Shown here in pieces: positions 22,291 through 28,914 of a stretch of 64,000 bases of DNA; positions within the stretch are counted from its first letter, which is position 1, and each line of letters opens with the position of its first letter. A model generated the notes under the pieces. The model did not search any database. It was not told where the DNA came from and worked only from the letters and a program-made list of their open reading frames with translations. The position numbers were made by a program, and so were the translations under genes. Source of the stretch: Gemmatimonas aurantiaca T-27 (lineage in GTDB: Bacteria; Gemmatimonadota; Gemmatimonadetes; Gemmatimonadales; Gemmatimonadaceae); contig NC_012489.1 of NCBI RefSeq assembly GCF_000010305.1, positions 744,001 through 808,000 of the forward strand, read 5' to 3'.

Positions 22291-22938
22291 TCAGAATAAG
22301 GTCGACGGACTGCGGGCTTCCAGTCTGCGCACCTCGCCGCCCAACAAACGGCTGGCGAGTGTGCGCACACCGCGTGTGAGCGCCGAGGCCGGGCTGCGCT
22401 TACCCTGCACGGCGGGGGCCGCCTCACCTCGTAGCCAGCGATCGAGTTCGTCCAGATCACTCACCTGCAGCGATTGCAACTCGGCCTGCACGAGCACGTA
22501 GCTCTTTTTGCCACGCGGCGGGGACGGCAGTGCGGGGGCAAACGCGAGTTCCATCGCTGCACGCGCGTCAGCAAAACGTGTGTAGCTCCCCAATGAGGTG
22601 ATGGCGCCGGCCACACGCCGCACCACCTCATAGCTGCGATCGATGACGTCATAACGCACGATGATGTCCCACTCGGCGCGGCCATTCACATCGTCGAACC
22701 AACGACCTTCCGACCAGAGTTCCGCGCGGACGTGCAGGCGCGCGGGAAATCCACTGCGGACCATTTCGTCGAACGGCTTTTCGGCCAGCACCCCGCGCAC
22801 GGCAATCACCGGCGGATAGTTCGTCGGGCTGATACGGATATCGATCTCCGGTTTCCCCTGCGCCCATGCGGCGGCACTGCTGCTCACCAGGAGCAGCAGT
22901 GCAACCACGAAGCGCAGGAGGGGGCGGATCGAGCGCAC
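22291..22938 (-). CDS. Exported DUF4390 protein
   Basis: 215 residues with a signal peptide (LLRFVVALLLLVSSSAAAWAQ). The body shows the DUF4390 pattern of a beta-rich envelope protein: FPARLHVRAELWSEGRWFDDV, WDIIVRYDVIDRSYEVVRR and SYVLVQAELQSLQVSDLDELDRWLRG. In betaproteobacteria DUF4390 genes sit directly beside ntrY-ntrX; here one sits two genes downstream of an NtrX-like regulator, behind a barrel protein. That conserved link supports reading the upstream pair as NtrYX-like. Function of the family is not known to me. Confidence 0.8.
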   Translation of the reverse strand: MRSIRPLLRFVVALLLLVSSSAAAWAQGKPEIDIRISPTNYPPVIAVRGVLAEKPFDEMVRSGFPARLHVRAELWSEGRWFDDVNGRAEWDIIVRYDVIDRSYEVVRRVAGAITSLGSYTRFADARAAMELAFAPALPSPPRGKKSYVLVQAELQSLQVSDLDELDRWLRGEAAPAVQGKRSPASALTRGVRTLASRLLGGEVRRLEARSPSTLF

Positions 22939-22950
22939 CAGAAATTCAGA

Positions 22951-24813
22951 TCAGAAGCGACGTGACAAGCGCACGTACACGTTGGGTGACTGACCGCTCT
23001 CGGACACCGCCTGCGCGATGTACACGCCGAAACTGCCGAAGTCGAAACCACCGCCAATGTCGGTGCGCCAGCCGCTGATCGGCGGCAACTTGCTGCGGCC
23101 GAAGGTGAGGTCCGCGATGGTCGGGCTGCCGGCATCACTCACCAGCCAGCCGCGTCCCGAGTTCGCGAAGATCACCCACGTGCCATCGCCGCGCACACCG
23201 TTGAATCCCCAGCGACGATCACCGTAGTTGTCATCGCCGAACAGGTTGATGCGGAAGTCGCCCTTCCACTCGAGCTGCGCCAGCACCATGCGGTCACACT
23301 GCGCGGGCCGTCCAAGCGCGATGTAGGCGCTCTCGTCGCCCGTGGCACAGGTGCCCACATCATTGCTGCCGATCATGCGCCGGAAGTCGAAGCCCGGCAG
23401 TGCATCGATGCCACTGACGGCGAGCCGTCGTTGAATGGGCAGGGCATCGCCGTTCACCCAACCACCAGCCACGACACGCATGTTGAGCTGCGCCTGCGGT
23501 CCAAGGCGGTTGTAGCGCCGCAGGTCCACGAACGCGCGTGAGTACTCTGTTTCGACACTGCCCTGTGGTTCGGTGGGGATGCCGCGCAATCCCGCCGTCA
23601 ACGGGCCGAATCGGTCGATGGTGCCGGAGCCGCGTTCCCACTCACCGCGCAGATACCATCCCGAGCGGGGATTCTCCGGGTTGGTACGTGTGTCGAGCAC
23701 CGCAGACACGGTGAGCAGGTCCATCACGCCTTCATCGGCCGCCGGGTTCACCCGCCATGGTGTGTCGCCCGAGAAGATGGACCACACGTCGCGCATGCGC
23801 CGGCTGCTCCAGCGTTCGCGGCCATACGACGCGCGCAGTTCCGAACCACGCCCGGAGAACAGCGACACATATCCCTGCCCACCATGGCGTTGCCAGTAGT
23901 CACGATAGTCACGCGTGAAGAGGAACGCGTTGAGACCCACTTCGGCGTCGGTGAGCTGCCAACGCTCCATGGCTTCCACTTCATCGAACAGACGACCGCC
24001 AACGGCCACCCCGTGGCGATTGCCCTGACGCACTTCGAACAGCGCGCGGTGGCCGAGGTTTTCGCGATCCCAACGCAGGCCGTCGCCGGTCCGGAAGATC
24101 CCGAACAGCTCGGCTCTGATGCGCGTGTCCTCTGCCCGTGCCCGGAAGCGCGGCCCAATGATGATGGGCAGACCTTCCACGCGATTGTACGTGTGGGCGG
24201 TGGTCACGAACAACTGGCTTTCGGAACTGTTGGAGCGTTCATCACGCACCCACTGCGACCAGCGGCCGAAGAAATCGGTATCGGCCACCAGCGTGTCGGC
24301 ACTTTCGTGGTATCGGTAGCGGGCGCTCCACACGCGGATCTCACCCGTGACGTTGGGGCGCTCCGGAGATTCGAAGGTGCCACCGAGCACGGTGAGCGAC
24401 CCATCGATGCGTGAGCCGTCCACCAACAAGGCATCACCATTGAGAACCACCACGTGGCCTGTGACCACGCCGGCGAGGCGCGTATTGCCATCCAGCACCG
24501 CCAGGTCGCCACGGACCGTGTCGGTGGAGGCGAGGTTGAACTCCCCGCGCACGCGTCGGGTGGATGCGGCGTTGAAGATGCGAGTCACCTCGAGCGCCAC
24601 ATCGCGCGGAACGCCACCGATGCGGCGGTCGCTGGCGCGATTGTCACGACTGCCATCACGACCGCTGTCCCGTTGCGCCTCGATCCCGGACATGGGGATC
24701 AGCGCCGCCATCATCGCGGTGAACAGCAATGCGGCGCGCAGCAAGGGGGGGAGAACAGACCGCGAACGGGACATGGACATGAGTTGACCGGAGGGACGGG
24801 CGGGGGGATTCAT
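22951..24813 (-). CDS. Outer-membrane beta-barrel with polymer-like N-terminal repeats
   Basis: 620 residues from the second of two adjacent ATGs (24813), the one with GGAG at a 6-nt spacing; the first is at 24816. A signal peptide follows a basic start (PPLLRAALLFTAMMAALIPM). Residues about 90-170 carry short V-x-G/VLNG/VLGG repeats (DTVRGDLAVLDGN, GVVTGHVVVLNGDALLVDGS, GSLTVLGG) that look like a bactofilin-type beta-helix. The remaining 450 residues are alternating barrel strands resembling the Omp85/surface-antigen barrel and end in the aromatic YVRLSRRF, as expected for BAM-inserted proteins. Located between NtrX-like and DUF4390 genes on the same strand; role unknown. Confidence 0.75.
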   Translation of the reverse strand: MNPPARPSGQLMSMSRSRSVLPPLLRAALLFTAMMAALIPMSGIEAQRDSGRDGSRDNRASDRRIGGVPRDVALEVTRIFNAASTRRVRGEFNLASTDTVRGDLAVLDGNTRLAGVVTGHVVVLNGDALLVDGSRIDGSLTVLGGTFESPERPNVTGEIRVWSARYRYHESADTLVADTDFFGRWSQWVRDERSNSSESQLFVTTAHTYNRVEGLPIIIGPRFRARAEDTRIRAELFGIFRTGDGLRWDRENLGHRALFEVRQGNRHGVAVGGRLFDEVEAMERWQLTDAEVGLNAFLFTRDYRDYWQRHGGQGYVSLFSGRGSELRASYGRERWSSRRMRDVWSIFSGDTPWRVNPAADEGVMDLLTVSAVLDTRTNPENPRSGWYLRGEWERGSGTIDRFGPLTAGLRGIPTEPQGSVETEYSRAFVDLRRYNRLGPQAQLNMRVVAGGWVNGDALPIQRRLAVSGIDALPGFDFRRMIGSNDVGTCATGDESAYIALGRPAQCDRMVLAQLEWKGDFRINLFGDDNYGDRRWGFNGVRGDGTWVIFANSGRGWLVSDAGSPTIADLTFGRSKLPPISGWRTDIGGGFDFGSFGVYIAQAVSESGQSPNVYVRLSRRF

Positions 24814-25004
24814 CATGAACTCCATCTGAAGGTCGCTGCCCGAGAGAGCAAGACACGTACCATTGGCCTTTCCCCTCCCAGCAGAGTGTGGCATGCGTCC
24901 TTCAGAGAGACACGCCTGTGTCGGAGTGCAACGCACCGCGGAGCCCCGACAGTTGCACACCAGCAAATGGTTTGAAAATGACGAATCCCGGAAACGACGA
25001 ACGA

Positions 25005-26423
25005 CTACTCGGGGGCTGATGCCAACCCGAGCCGTCGCATCCGACGATACAAGTTGGGGCGGTCCGTTTGCAGTCGTCGCGCGGCTTCGGCCACATTCCC
25101 ATCACTTTGCGCCAGTGCCGCCGAGATCAGCCGTCGTTCATAGGCATCGAGGGCATCACTGAGGGGCATGTGCGCTGCCGATGCTGGATCCGGCGTGTCC
25201 ACCTCCGTTCCCGCCTCGGTACCCGAGGGCACGGCCGACGTGGCGCCGGGCAGCGCCGCTGTTTCGGGCAGCACCTGACGCACTTCGGTGCGGGTGACCT
25301 CGGAGCCGGCGTGCAGAATGGCCAACCGTTCCACGACGTTGGCCAGTTCGCGGATATTGCCGGGCCACCGGTAAGCGCTGAGCGCCCCGAGCGCACTTTC
25401 GTGCCACTGCACCAGCGGCCGACCGGTGCGGGTGCGATGACGTGCCGAGAAGTGACGCACCAGTGCCGGCAGGTCGCCCGGCCGGTCACGCAGCGGCGGC
25501 AAGTGAATGGGGATCACGTTCAGACGGAAGAACAGATCCTCTCGGAAGCTGCCGTCGGCCACGGCACGTGTCAGATCCTTGTTGGTGGCTGCCAGGATGC
25601 GCACATCCACCTTGATCGGCTTTCCACCACCCACACGTTCGATCTCACGCGCCTCGATCGCTCGCAGCAGCTTGGCCTGGGCTTCGGCCCCGAGATCACC
25701 GACCTCGTCGAGAAACAGGGTGCCCGTATGGGCCAGCTCGAACCGACCAATGCGGCGCTCAGTGGCCCCGGTGAACGCGCCCCGCTCGTGCCCGAACATC
25801 TCGCTCTCCACGAGATCGCGCGGAATAGCCGCACAATTGACGCGCACAAACGGCCGATCCCGACGGGCGCTCGAGACATGCAAGGCTGCCGCCGCGAGTT
25901 CCTTGCCGGTGCCGGACTCGCCGGTGATCAGCACGCGGGCATCGGTGGGGCCAACACGCGCGAGCAGCGCCCGCACGTCGCGCATCGCGGGCGAGTCGCC
26001 GATCATCTCGCCGGAGATGCCCAGATCTTCGCGCAGGGCGGCTGCGGCCCGTCGCGCCTGACGCAACTCGAACGCCGAAGCCAGTGCGAGCAGCACGCCC
26101 TCAGGCGTGAGCGGCTTTTCGAGGAATGTGAATGCCCCCAGTCGGGTGGCACGCACCGCGTCGGTGAGCGCCGCCCGCCCGCTCATCATGACCACCGGCA
26201 TGTCCGGGCGTCGCTCGCGCAGCTTTTCCAGCAAGCCCAGCCCGTCCAGATCGCCCGGCATCATCAGGTCGATCAGCGCCACGTCCGGCTCCGAGGTCTC
26301 GGCAAGCGCGAGACCCGTGGAGCCGTCGGAGGCATCACGCACGTCGTAGCCTTCGGAGCTCAGCAACGCTCCGACCATACGCCGGATATTGGGTTCGTCG
26401 TCGACGATCAGGACGCTGGGCAC
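25005..26423 (-). CDS. NtrC/NtrX-type sigma-54 response regulator
   Basis: 472 residues. Receiver at 1-120 with VLIVDDEPNIRRMV, VALIDLMMPG (phosphoacceptor Asp) and FTFLEKPLTPE. The AAA+ domain has Walker A GESGTGKELAAAAL, the sigma-54 contact GAFTGA in GHERGAFTGATERRIGR, Walker B TLFLDEVGDLG and RFRLN-type FREDLFFRLNVIPIHLP, then RWPGNIRELANVVERL. The C-terminal Fis-type helix-turn-helix is SDGNVAEAARRLQTDRPNLYRRM. All features of a sigma-54 activator are intact. Its kinase is encoded at 27523-28914 with two membrane proteins in between. The DUF4390 link supports NtrX. Confidence 0.93.
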   Translation of the reverse strand: MPSVLIVDDEPNIRRMVGALLSSEGYDVRDASDGSTGLALAETSEPDVALIDLMMPGDLDGLGLLEKLRERRPDMPVVMMSGRAALTDAVRATRLGAFTFLEKPLTPEGVLLALASAFELRQARRAAAALREDLGISGEMIGDSPAMRDVRALLARVGPTDARVLITGESGTGKELAAAALHVSSARRDRPFVRVNCAAIPRDLVESEMFGHERGAFTGATERRIGRFELAHTGTLFLDEVGDLGAEAQAKLLRAIEAREIERVGGGKPIKVDVRILAATNKDLTRAVADGSFREDLFFRLNVIPIHLPPLRDRPGDLPALVRHFSARHRTRTGRPLVQWHESALGALSAYRWPGNIRELANVVERLAILHAGSEVTRTEVRQVLPETAALPGATSAVPSGTEAGTEVDTPDPASAAHMPLSDALDAYERRLISAALAQSDGNVAEAARRLQTDRPNLYRRMRRLGLASAPE

Positions 26424-26432
26424 GGCCGTGAA

Positions 26433-27017
26433 CTAGCGCGACGCCGTGTGTGACGACACGGGCACCGGCTCACCGCGCTCCGTCAGCACCCGCGTGGTGA
26501 AACGCTGAGCCTCGGAGACTTTTTCCATCTCCACCGCCACCGTGTCGAGATTGCGTTCCATGTTCTCGAAGCGTGATTCGAACTGCTGTCGCAGTGCCGA
26601 CTCCTGCGCGGCTGCACTGCCGCGACGATCGATGTACCGCGCGATGGCCCGCGCAATCGGCCAACCGATGCAGAGAAATCCCACGGCGGCGGCGAACGCC
26701 CACGAGATCTTCACCAAGCCATCGGGTACGACATCGCGAATGGGCACCGTCGTGCTGGTCTGGCCCTGCTGCACATGGATGCCGAGACCATCGACGCGCA
26801 CCGTGATATCGGGGTCCGGGCCATTGGTGGGAAAGACAATGGTGCCGGGCTGCCGCTGCGCCTGGGCCTCTGCCCGTGCGGCATCCTGGGCCGCCGTGCG
26901 TGCGGCCTGCGTCGCATCGCGCGCGCCTTCCATGGCAGCACGCACGGCCTCGTTGATCTCCTTTTCGAGCTGCGCGCCATCGAGTGACCGCGCTGGCTGA
27001 CCGGCCTGCTGCATCAT
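26433..27017 (-). CDS. One-helix membrane protein, paralogue of its upstream neighbour
   Basis: 194 residues, no family recognised. Residues 10-55 form an Ala/Arg/Gln-rich helix, 60-100 a beta-rich patch (DITVRVDGLGIHVQQGQ), one membrane helix at about 108-130 (ISWAFAAAVGFLCIGWPIA), and a basic then coiled C-terminal region. The end, RNLDTVAVEMEKVSEAQRF then TTRVLTERGE, parallels the neighbour's EQAVELVAVEVERISEGQRF then TAKLLAERS. It overlaps the upstream gene by 4 bp and lies 9 bp before the regulator. A sensor accessory or signal-modulating role is inferred from position only. Confidence 0.7.
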   Translation of the reverse strand: MMQQAGQPARSLDGAQLEKEINEAVRAAMEGARDATQAARTAAQDAARAEAQAQRQPGTIVFPTNGPDPDITVRVDGLGIHVQQGQTSTTVPIRDVVPDGLVKISWAFAAAVGFLCIGWPIARAIARYIDRRGSAAAQESALRQQFESRFENMERNLDTVAVEMEKVSEAQRFTTRVLTERGEPVPVSSHTASR

Positions 27018-27526
27018 CGTACCCGCTCCATGTCCTGGGCTGACCGCTCGGCCAGCAACTTGGCGGTGAATCGCTGTCCTTCACTGATGCGTTCGACTTC
27101 CACGGCTACGAGCTCCACCGCCTGTTCGATCGCCGCGAGGCGCTGGGCGACATCATTGGGCGTGCGCGACTGATCACCGCGGCGATCAAGCCAGCGGGCA
27201 AAAGAGCGCACCAGCGGACTGCCCAGCGTTATCGCCACGACCATGGAACAGCCGATGGCGATGACGGCAATGGCGCCATTGGGGACATCCTTGCGGGCCC
27301 GTGCTGGTGCGAACTCCGGTCGGCGGGAGGCTTCGGTGATGGCGCGGGCTGCGGCTCCACCGACTTCCTCACCATTGATGCTGATGCCCTGATCGTTGAT
27401 GACGATGCGGTTCACGTTGCCTTTGCCATCGGGCACGGTGATCACCCGCTCGCCGCCTGCGCCCGGTTGCTCCGAGATCTGCGGTGCGGCGGCGTCACCG
27501 CGCTGCTGCCCTGAACCCTGTGTCAT
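27014..27526 (-). CDS. One-helix membrane protein, paralogue of its downstream neighbour
   Basis: 170 residues, no family recognised. A polar N-terminus with a beta-rich patch (VITVPDGKGNVNRIVINDQ, GISINGEEVGG), a membrane helix at about 85-107 (GAIAVIAIGCSMVVAITLG), the juxtamembrane RSFARWLDRRGD, and a coiled tail ending EVERISEGQRFTAKLLAERS. The same order and tail occur in the 194-residue neighbour, including the juxtamembrane ARAIARYIDRRG. Start overlaps the kinase stop by 4 bp. The pair is likely an old duplication kept within the two-component operon. Confidence 0.7.
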   Translation of the reverse strand: MTQGSGQQRGDAAAPQISEQPGAGGERVITVPDGKGNVNRIVINDQGISINGEEVGGAAARAITEASRRPEFAPARARKDVPNGAIAVIAIGCSMVVAITLGSPLVRSFARWLDRRGDQSRTPNDVAQRLAAIEQAVELVAVEVERISEGQRFTAKLLAERSAQDMERVR

Positions 27527-28914
27527 GTGCCCACTCCTATGTTCGACATCGGCGAGCGTGGTCCGCCGGATGTGTCTGTCCCAATCGGGAGTCGTACGAG
27601 CATCACCGTGCCGTGGCCGACGATACTCGATGCCACCACCGTGCCGCGGTGGGCTTCGATCGTTTGCCGCGCGATCGCCAGGCCCAGACCTGTGCCACCC
27701 GGCTTGGTGGTGACGTACGGTTCGAAGATGCGTTGCAGCACTTCCGGCGTCATGCCGGTGCCCGAATCGCCAATGCGGATCGCGACCATGGACGGCTCTC
27801 GGTACACCGCGACCTGAATGGTACCGGCGCCGGGTGTGGCATCGACCGCGTTGATGAGAATGTTGGTCACCGCCCGCACGAGCGACTCGTGGAAACCGAC
27901 CACCAGCGGCAACTCCTCGCCACAGGACAGGTCGAGCGTGAGTCGCTCAGGCACCACGGCCCGTGCCACCCGGGTGACCAGCTCCGATACATCGATTTCA
28001 GCCGGTGGGCCATCGGGCAACCGACCGAACTGGGCAAAGCTGCGCGCCATGGTCTCGAGGCGTGCCGCTTCTTCGGCCAGGACATCCACGGTGTCACGCA
28101 GTTCTTCGGGAGCCTGGCGTCGCAGCCGATCCACGGCGAACCGAATGGGGGTCAGCGGGTTCTTGAGTTCGTGCGCAAAGCGGCGGGCGGACTCACGGAA
28201 TGCCTCGGCGCGCTCCGCTTCCAGCGCGCGGCGTCTCCCGGTTTCCAGTTCCATGGCCATGGTGCGCATCCCCGATCTGAGTACTTCGAACTCCGGAGCG
28301 CCGCGGCGATCCGTCTGTTCCGGAATAGGCCGCCCCATGCGGACCAGCCCTGTCCAGCCGACCAGCTCATCCAGCGGACGGCTGAGCTGTCGGCTGAGAT
28401 GTCCTGCCACCCGCGAGGCCCCGATGGCCACCAGCACCACCACAAACAATCCGCCCACCAGCACCAGGCGCATCGAACGCCCCGCCACAAAATCGAACCG
28501 TCGGGCCAACTGCGCCGACTCACGCAACTCGGCCTCATGCCGCTCGAGCGCCTGCCGTTGCGCCGGCGACAGCGGAGCCCGGTCGACGGCCCGGAGGGCC
28601 TCCTCGCCACTGTGCGCAATGCGTTCCCACGCTGATCGCGCCGAGAGCAGCGAGAGTGTCCGGGCGGCGAGCCCGGTCCACGCCAGCGTGACGACGACCG
28701 TGGGGATCAGCGCGAACAGCAACAACATCGCAAACAGGCGCGTACGAAAAGGAGCACGCGTACCGTCTCGGGGCGCCGCGTGACCTGGCCCCCGCACCCC
28801 CTCACGCGAGGCGAGGGGATCGAGGGCGGATTCCGCAGCAGATCCCGGACGGGATGCCGTACGCGAGGGCTCGGCGTCCGGTTTCGTGGCGGTCTGCTTC
28901 CGCATCTCGTTCAT
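27523..28914 (-). CDS. NtrY-like sensor histidine kinase
   Basis: 463 residues from the ATG at 28914 (MNEMRKQTATK); the open frame upstream covers the divergent acyl-CoA synthetase start. An N-terminal Pro/Ala/Arg-rich stretch leads to helix 1 (LFAMLLLFALIPTVVVTLAW), a short helical periplasmic loop, helix 2 (LVLVGGLFVVVLVAIGAS), HAMP-like VAGHLSRQLSRPLDELVG, H-box RRFAHELKNPLTPIRF, N-box NILINAVDATPG, G1 IGDSGTGMTPEVLQRIFEPYVTTKPGG and G2 GTGLGLAIARQ. It heads a four-gene overlapping set whose last gene is an NtrC-type regulator. The periplasmic loop is short for a ligand sensor. Confidence 0.9.
   Translation of the reverse strand: MNEMRKQTATKPDAEPSRTASRPGSAAESALDPLASREGVRGPGHAAPRDGTRAPFRTRLFAMLLLFALIPTVVVTLAWTGLAARTLSLLSARSAWERIAHSGEEALRAVDRAPLSPAQRQALERHEAELRESAQLARRFDFVAGRSMRLVLVGGLFVVVLVAIGASRVAGHLSRQLSRPLDELVGWTGLVRMGRPIPEQTDRRGAPEFEVLRSGMRTMAMELETGRRRALEAERAEAFRESARRFAHELKNPLTPIRFAVDRLRRQAPEELRDTVDVLAEEAARLETMARSFAQFGRLPDGPPAEIDVSELVTRVARAVVPERLTLDLSCGEELPLVVGFHESLVRAVTNILINAVDATPGAGTIQVAVYREPSMVAIRIGDSGTGMTPEVLQRIFEPYVTTKPGGTGLGLAIARQTIEAHRGTVVASSIVGHGTVMLVRLPIGTDTSGGPRSPMSNIGVGT

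Follow-up and report, generated by a model that had tools for sequence, protein, structure and literature searches.

Gemmatimonas aurantiaca T-27 encodes two small membrane proteins, P170 and P194, between a sensor histidine kinase and a sigma-54-dependent response regulator. They are true paralogues, and we see an about even chance that both derive from a so far undescribed membrane adaptor of Gemmatimonadota, have diverged and tune the kinase output. What is new is a membrane family that has expanded, has a sharply delimited tail motif and is sited between kinase and regulator. The modules open a way into envelope signalling in a phylum that has been little studied.

Operon structure and promoter-like site

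All the operon genes lie on the (-) strand of the window, the 64-kb stretch of T-27 DNA that was analysed. The kinase gene (27523–28914) matches Pfam HisKA at 2e-10 and HATPase_c at 7e-23. Its product has two predicted transmembrane helices with a region of about 80 residues between them, then a HAMP-like stretch, HisKA (HELKNP) and HATPase; the helices and the start were read from the sequence. The frame is open up to 29226, and the ATG at 28914 (MNEMRKQ) is the likely start.

P170 (module A, 27014–27526) and P194 (module B, 26433–27017) come next, and re-reading the frames confirmed both ORFs and their lengths of 170 and 194 residues. The kinase, the two modules and the regulator had been described as one overlapping set. 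This is correct for the 4-bp ATGA overlaps at 27526–27523 (kinase/P170) and 27017–27014 (P170/P194) and incorrect for the regulator (25005–26423), whose GTG start at 26423 is separated from P194 by 9 bp. P170 and P194 may be translated together with the kinase.

Farther downstream are genes for a predicted outer-membrane beta-barrel-like protein with N-terminal repeats (22951–24813) and a DUF4390-related, PlrP-like exported protein (22291–22938). The former found no match in family searches and is assigned by sequence reading and its conserved operon position. The latter is assigned by its conserved operon position and by Pfam PF14334, at 21.3 bits (E 2e-4) and below the curated cut-off of 27.

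A sigma-54 promoter-like site, TGGTACGTGTCTTGC, occupies 24848–24862 (-), about 35 bp upstream of the probable barrel-gene start. At the same position, related loci carry TGGTAC or CGGCAC and then a spaced TGC. Such sites precede the barrel gene in 8 of the 11 loci from the genus (0.2 expected from mononucleotide shuffles), in 6 of the 38 from the family (0.3 expected) and in 3 of the 16 from other families (0.1 expected). These counts are suggestive rather than a blind test, because the pattern was relaxed after the first matches were seen. The motif is not enriched across the window (46 found, 53 expected). Position and conservation are what make the site suggestive of a promoter, from which the regulator would be expected to switch on the genes for the outer-membrane protein and the DUF4390 protein farther down.

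Paralogy, anatomy and constraint

The original prediction that P170 and P194 are paralogues is upheld. A pairwise BLASTP gives 35% identity over 88 residues (E 9e-16). The tails align beyond composition, with z=16.4 against shuffles (13.2 for the coil alone) and none of 3000 shuffles reaching the score. Genus-level profiles of the two align over 123 columns at a probability of 99.8%. As single sequences the N-terminal parts give no pairwise alignment (z=0.2), and their profiles alone reach a probability of 73% and a score of 24.9 versus at most 13.3 for 60 column shuffles.

Both proteins are rich in helix and alanine, and this and the pairwise unalignable N-terminal parts would fit a chance or low-complexity resemblance. 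We give that reading practically no credence, as it is ruled out by the shuffle tests, the profile comparison, the conservation and the dN/dS values. The modules are under purifying selection, with dN/dS in close pairs of 0.08–0.23 for the membrane helix and tail and 0.19–0.45 for the N-terminal parts.

The expected common order holds as a prediction. Each protein is predicted to have a patch of four beta strands, in P194 after an alanine-rich N-terminal helix, then a single membrane helix, a basic juxtamembrane segment and a helical tail in the cytoplasm. AlphaFold2 gives four strands and then a long helix in both proteins at moderate to low confidence (pLDDT 72 and pTM 0.27 for P194; 64 and 0.23 for P170). 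The beta patch is supported, its fold being a prediction. No significant match came from a fold search with the P194 model (pTM 0.27) or from a sequence search of solved structures.

The charge asymmetry around the helix is the same in 202 of 209 informative copies and opposite in 7, with a mean net charge of +2.9 after the helix and -0.5 before it. Because the positive charge follows the helix, the positive-inside rule puts the tail in the cytoplasm. The N-terminal patch is predicted to lie outside the inner membrane, with the single helix as anchor.

The tail motif ExER..E.QR(F/Y) is invariant or nearly so. When counted on 38 copies retrieved without the motif, alignment columns E86, E88, E92 and R95 are conserved in all 38, and R89 and Q94 in 37. 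Invariant tail residues are E163, E165, E169 and R172 in P194 and E143, E145, E149 and R152 in P170. Such polar invariance exceeds what coiled-coil packing alone needs.

Family and distribution

The proteins had been thought to belong to no named family, and indeed no Pfam or NCBIfam model covers P170 or P194. An NCBIfam search with 20 modules likewise found no model covering the set, and a literature search on Gemmatimonadota two-component, sigma-54 and small membrane proteins returned nothing relevant. The conserved module of membrane helix, basic stretch and tail occurs in 200 of 298 Gemmatimonadota genomes. Nearly all sampled Gemmatimonadaceae, a family of soil and water bacteria, have it, with up to 11 copies per genome, and the other families mostly have one weak copy per genome.

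When 84,980 species genomes were scanned for the motif, 400 stretches were confirmed; the best 80, which were inspected, are labelled Gemmatimonadota or unclassified bacteria except for one labelled Kuenenia. This contig, labelled Candidatus Kuenenia stuttgartiensis, carries a Gemmatimonas-type operon and is probably a mislabelled MAG.

The module is a conserved accessory in the operon and is not specific to it, since it is also found stand-alone; therefore it appears to be a general membrane adaptor that also entered the operon. T-27 has four copies, the P170/P194 pair and two stand-alone ones. In the latter (L031 4971–5819; L032 5414–6193), a predicted coiled-coil N-terminal part replaces the beta patch. 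Fusion of the module to other domains was considered and rejected, as the long frames looked like spurious GC-rich frames entering the module and its own N-terminal part.

Copy number and history in the operon

Forty loci spread over Gemmatimonadaceae were fetched by way of the DUF4390 gene rather than the module, which makes the sample unbiased, and 38 had the kinase in view. Between kinase and regulator, 33 of these 38 complete loci have one to four modules; the other five have none, and their kinase and regulator genes are adjacent. The pair is thus not a feature missing from all related loci. It is duplicated in the operon as originally described, and is only one state of a series of 0–4 copies. 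Several single-copy Gemmatimonas-like genomes retain only the P194 type (B), and most of 80 named loci also have a module between kinase and regulator.

One locus counted among the 33 has a degenerate 56-residue module remnant between kinase and regulator (L289 3118–3285), consistent with recent loss.

The operon of kinase, sigma-54 regulator, predicted outer-membrane protein and DUF4390 protein is phylum-wide. In the families examined outside Gemmatimonadaceae, it lacks the modules, and most loci retain the order kinase-regulator-barrel-DUF4390. Because the family loci vary and the operons of the other families examined have no modules, the modules look like an insertion in an old operon with later losses.

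In one other family, a lipoprotein-like gene of about 240 codons, without an NCBIfam match, fills the gap between kinase and regulator (L231 4055–4765; L232 3707–4447). This place in the operon thus seems open to accessory genes of different kinds.

In a tree of 186 modules, copies from the same place in the operon fall together, and within the genus A and B each form a clade; the deep branching of the tree is unreliable because the domain is short. Closely related loci with zero or one to four copies represent natural variation at one locus. This variation and the closely related loci without modules make the module role directly testable.

Relation to NtrYX and DUF4390 systems

The operon had been called NtrYX-like. 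This is right at the level of kinship, given the linked DUF4390 gene and the NtrC/NtrX-like regulator, and wrong at the level of an NtrYX equivalog. The regulator has the receiver, AAA+ and Fis-type HTH domains expected of NtrX, and scores 407 bits with the NCBIfam NtrX model NF051870 and 450 bits with TIGR01818, below their cut-offs of 600 and 558. NtrY and PlrS have periplasmic PDC, HAMP and PAS before the kinase core, whereas Pfam-type domain searches with the kinase here matched HisKA and HATPase only, and no PAS or PDC.

To our knowledge, NtrYX-type systems have only a few described third components, namely PlrP and NtrZ. The linked DUF4390 protein is a stronger tie to NtrYX than the regulator and kinase scores. 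Its gene is linked throughout Gemmatimonadaceae and in most other families sampled. The NtrYX link holds as kin because proteins of the DUF4390 type have been reported as a third component in proteobacterial systems of the NtrYX family (PMC13001219).

The Bordetella DUF4390 protein PlrP modulates PlrS and is reported, from genetic evidence, to inhibit its phosphatase activity (PMC13001219). The PlrP-PlrS-PlrR system shares with the present one a HisKA kinase with the HE(L/I)KN motif, an NtrC/NtrX-like regulator and a linked DUF4390 gene (PMC13001219). However, the DUF4390 gene here is downstream, not upstream, and there are an extra barrel gene and modules between kinase and regulator. NtrZ of Caulobacter is also an accessory of an NtrYX system (PMC13001219), but it is a putative periplasmic protein not adjoining ntrYX, whereas P170 and P194 are membrane-anchored with a predicted cytoplasmic tail. 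The Rhodobacter NtrYX controls envelope genes (PMC7240162).

Proposed role

In the operon, the modules appear to add a layer of signalling that serves the cell envelope. P170 and P194, as one or more membrane complexes, would modulate the kinase output to the sigma-54 regulator; we infer the contact with the kinase, the sign of the effect and the stimulus. One tail is combined with several kinds of outer part. The differing N-terminal parts could be the input side and the common invariant tail the output side. The tail would most likely dock on a helical surface exposed to the cytoplasm, for instance the linker of the kinase, similarly to the PspB leucine zipper and ArcB.

This adaptor reading is backed by the placement, the ATGA overlap, the charge asymmetry, the invariant tail, the positional clades, dN/dS and the sigma-54-like sites, and by the published precedents of PlrP acting on PlrS and PspB binding ArcB. 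The partner need not be this kinase, because the same tail is found in copies without such a kinase or regulator nearby. The modules are dispensable for the basic system, because none lie between the two genes in five loci of the family or in those examined from other families. One genome has no module there, yet has seven copies elsewhere.

Sensor kinases are also tuned by other small or accessory proteins of the membrane, such as SafA, UgtL and MgrB (on PhoQ) and WalH/WalI (PMC8534201). P170 and P194 have no family match to any of these in the libraries searched, and differ from them in that their genes form a tandem duplicate between kinase and regulator.

The variation of 0–4 copies at the locus, the up to 11 copies per genome and the envelope proteins encoded in the same operon would also suit structural envelope proteins, that is, scaffolds oligomerising via the tail and belonging to the regulon without any signalling role. 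We regard this as improbable, for in the operon the modules are found nowhere but between kinase and regulator, ahead of the sigma-54-like site and apart from the downstream envelope genes.

A further reading, which we offer as a doubtful one, is a mix-and-match sensor array. In it, 0–4 tandem modules with varied outer parts and one invariant inner plug would feed several envelope signals into one kinase-regulator pair, and stand-alone copies elsewhere in the genome would reuse the plug.

PspB and distant relatives

PspB resembles the modules in having a single transmembrane helix, a basic juxtamembrane stretch and a cytoplasmic helical tail, and in belonging to the system of a sigma-54 activator; moreover, some module relatives adjoin PspA. 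PspB binds the sensor kinase ArcB and needs its leucine zipper to do so (PMC2764110). The PspB-type N-terminal membrane helix and helical tail are present in minimal copies of about 95 residues, whereas P170 and P194 have a long extracytoplasmic part first. PspB differs from the modules also in giving no significant profile match and having no ExER..E.QRF tail.

P170 and P194 have no PspB match in Pfam or NCBIfam. TIGR02976 matched 1 of 20 modules, at E 0.003, and a PF06667 search of 150 genomes gave one match above the cut-off, which is not a module. PspB membership is ruled out by the Pfam/NCBIfam searches and the profile comparison, for which the PspB sequence was confirmed by its Pfam match. 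In build and context PspB can be called an analogue of the modules, but homology is not detectable.

The relatives of about 95 residues in other families are distant ones, with profile probabilities of 97.7 and 98.1% and scores of 67 and 75 versus at most 28 and 22 for shuffles preserving the hydrophobic pattern. In six loci, the relative lies close to, or immediately upstream of, YbjN/CesT_Tir and PspA/IM30, in some with an AI-2E transporter next. In nine loci of other Gemmatimonadota families, it is between bshC and murJ-uvrC. Modules beside PspA or MurJ were looked for in the T-27 genome and not found. An ancestral envelope-related role is suggested because the relatives adjoin YbjN/PspA or BshC/MurJ.

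The strongest alternative to the adaptor reading is that the tail serves to bind one cytoplasmic partner shared by all copies, such as PspA/IM30 or some other protein of envelope stress, the modules being PspB-like recruiters and the operon giving co-expression rather than contact with the kinase. The tail is common to all copies in any neighbourhood, and in several families a relative immediately precedes YbjN/CesT_Tir and PspA. However, YbjN-PspA in T-27 has no adjoining module, other families place the relative between BshC and MurJ, and no PspB homology is detected. We consider this alternative rather unlikely.

Some stand-alone copies have recurrent neighbours of their own. Six share a conserved neighbourhood with an OmpR-type regulator, several of them also with a CHASE3 histidine kinase or a sortilin-like repeat protein. 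Three others are divergent from an ECF sigma factor gene.
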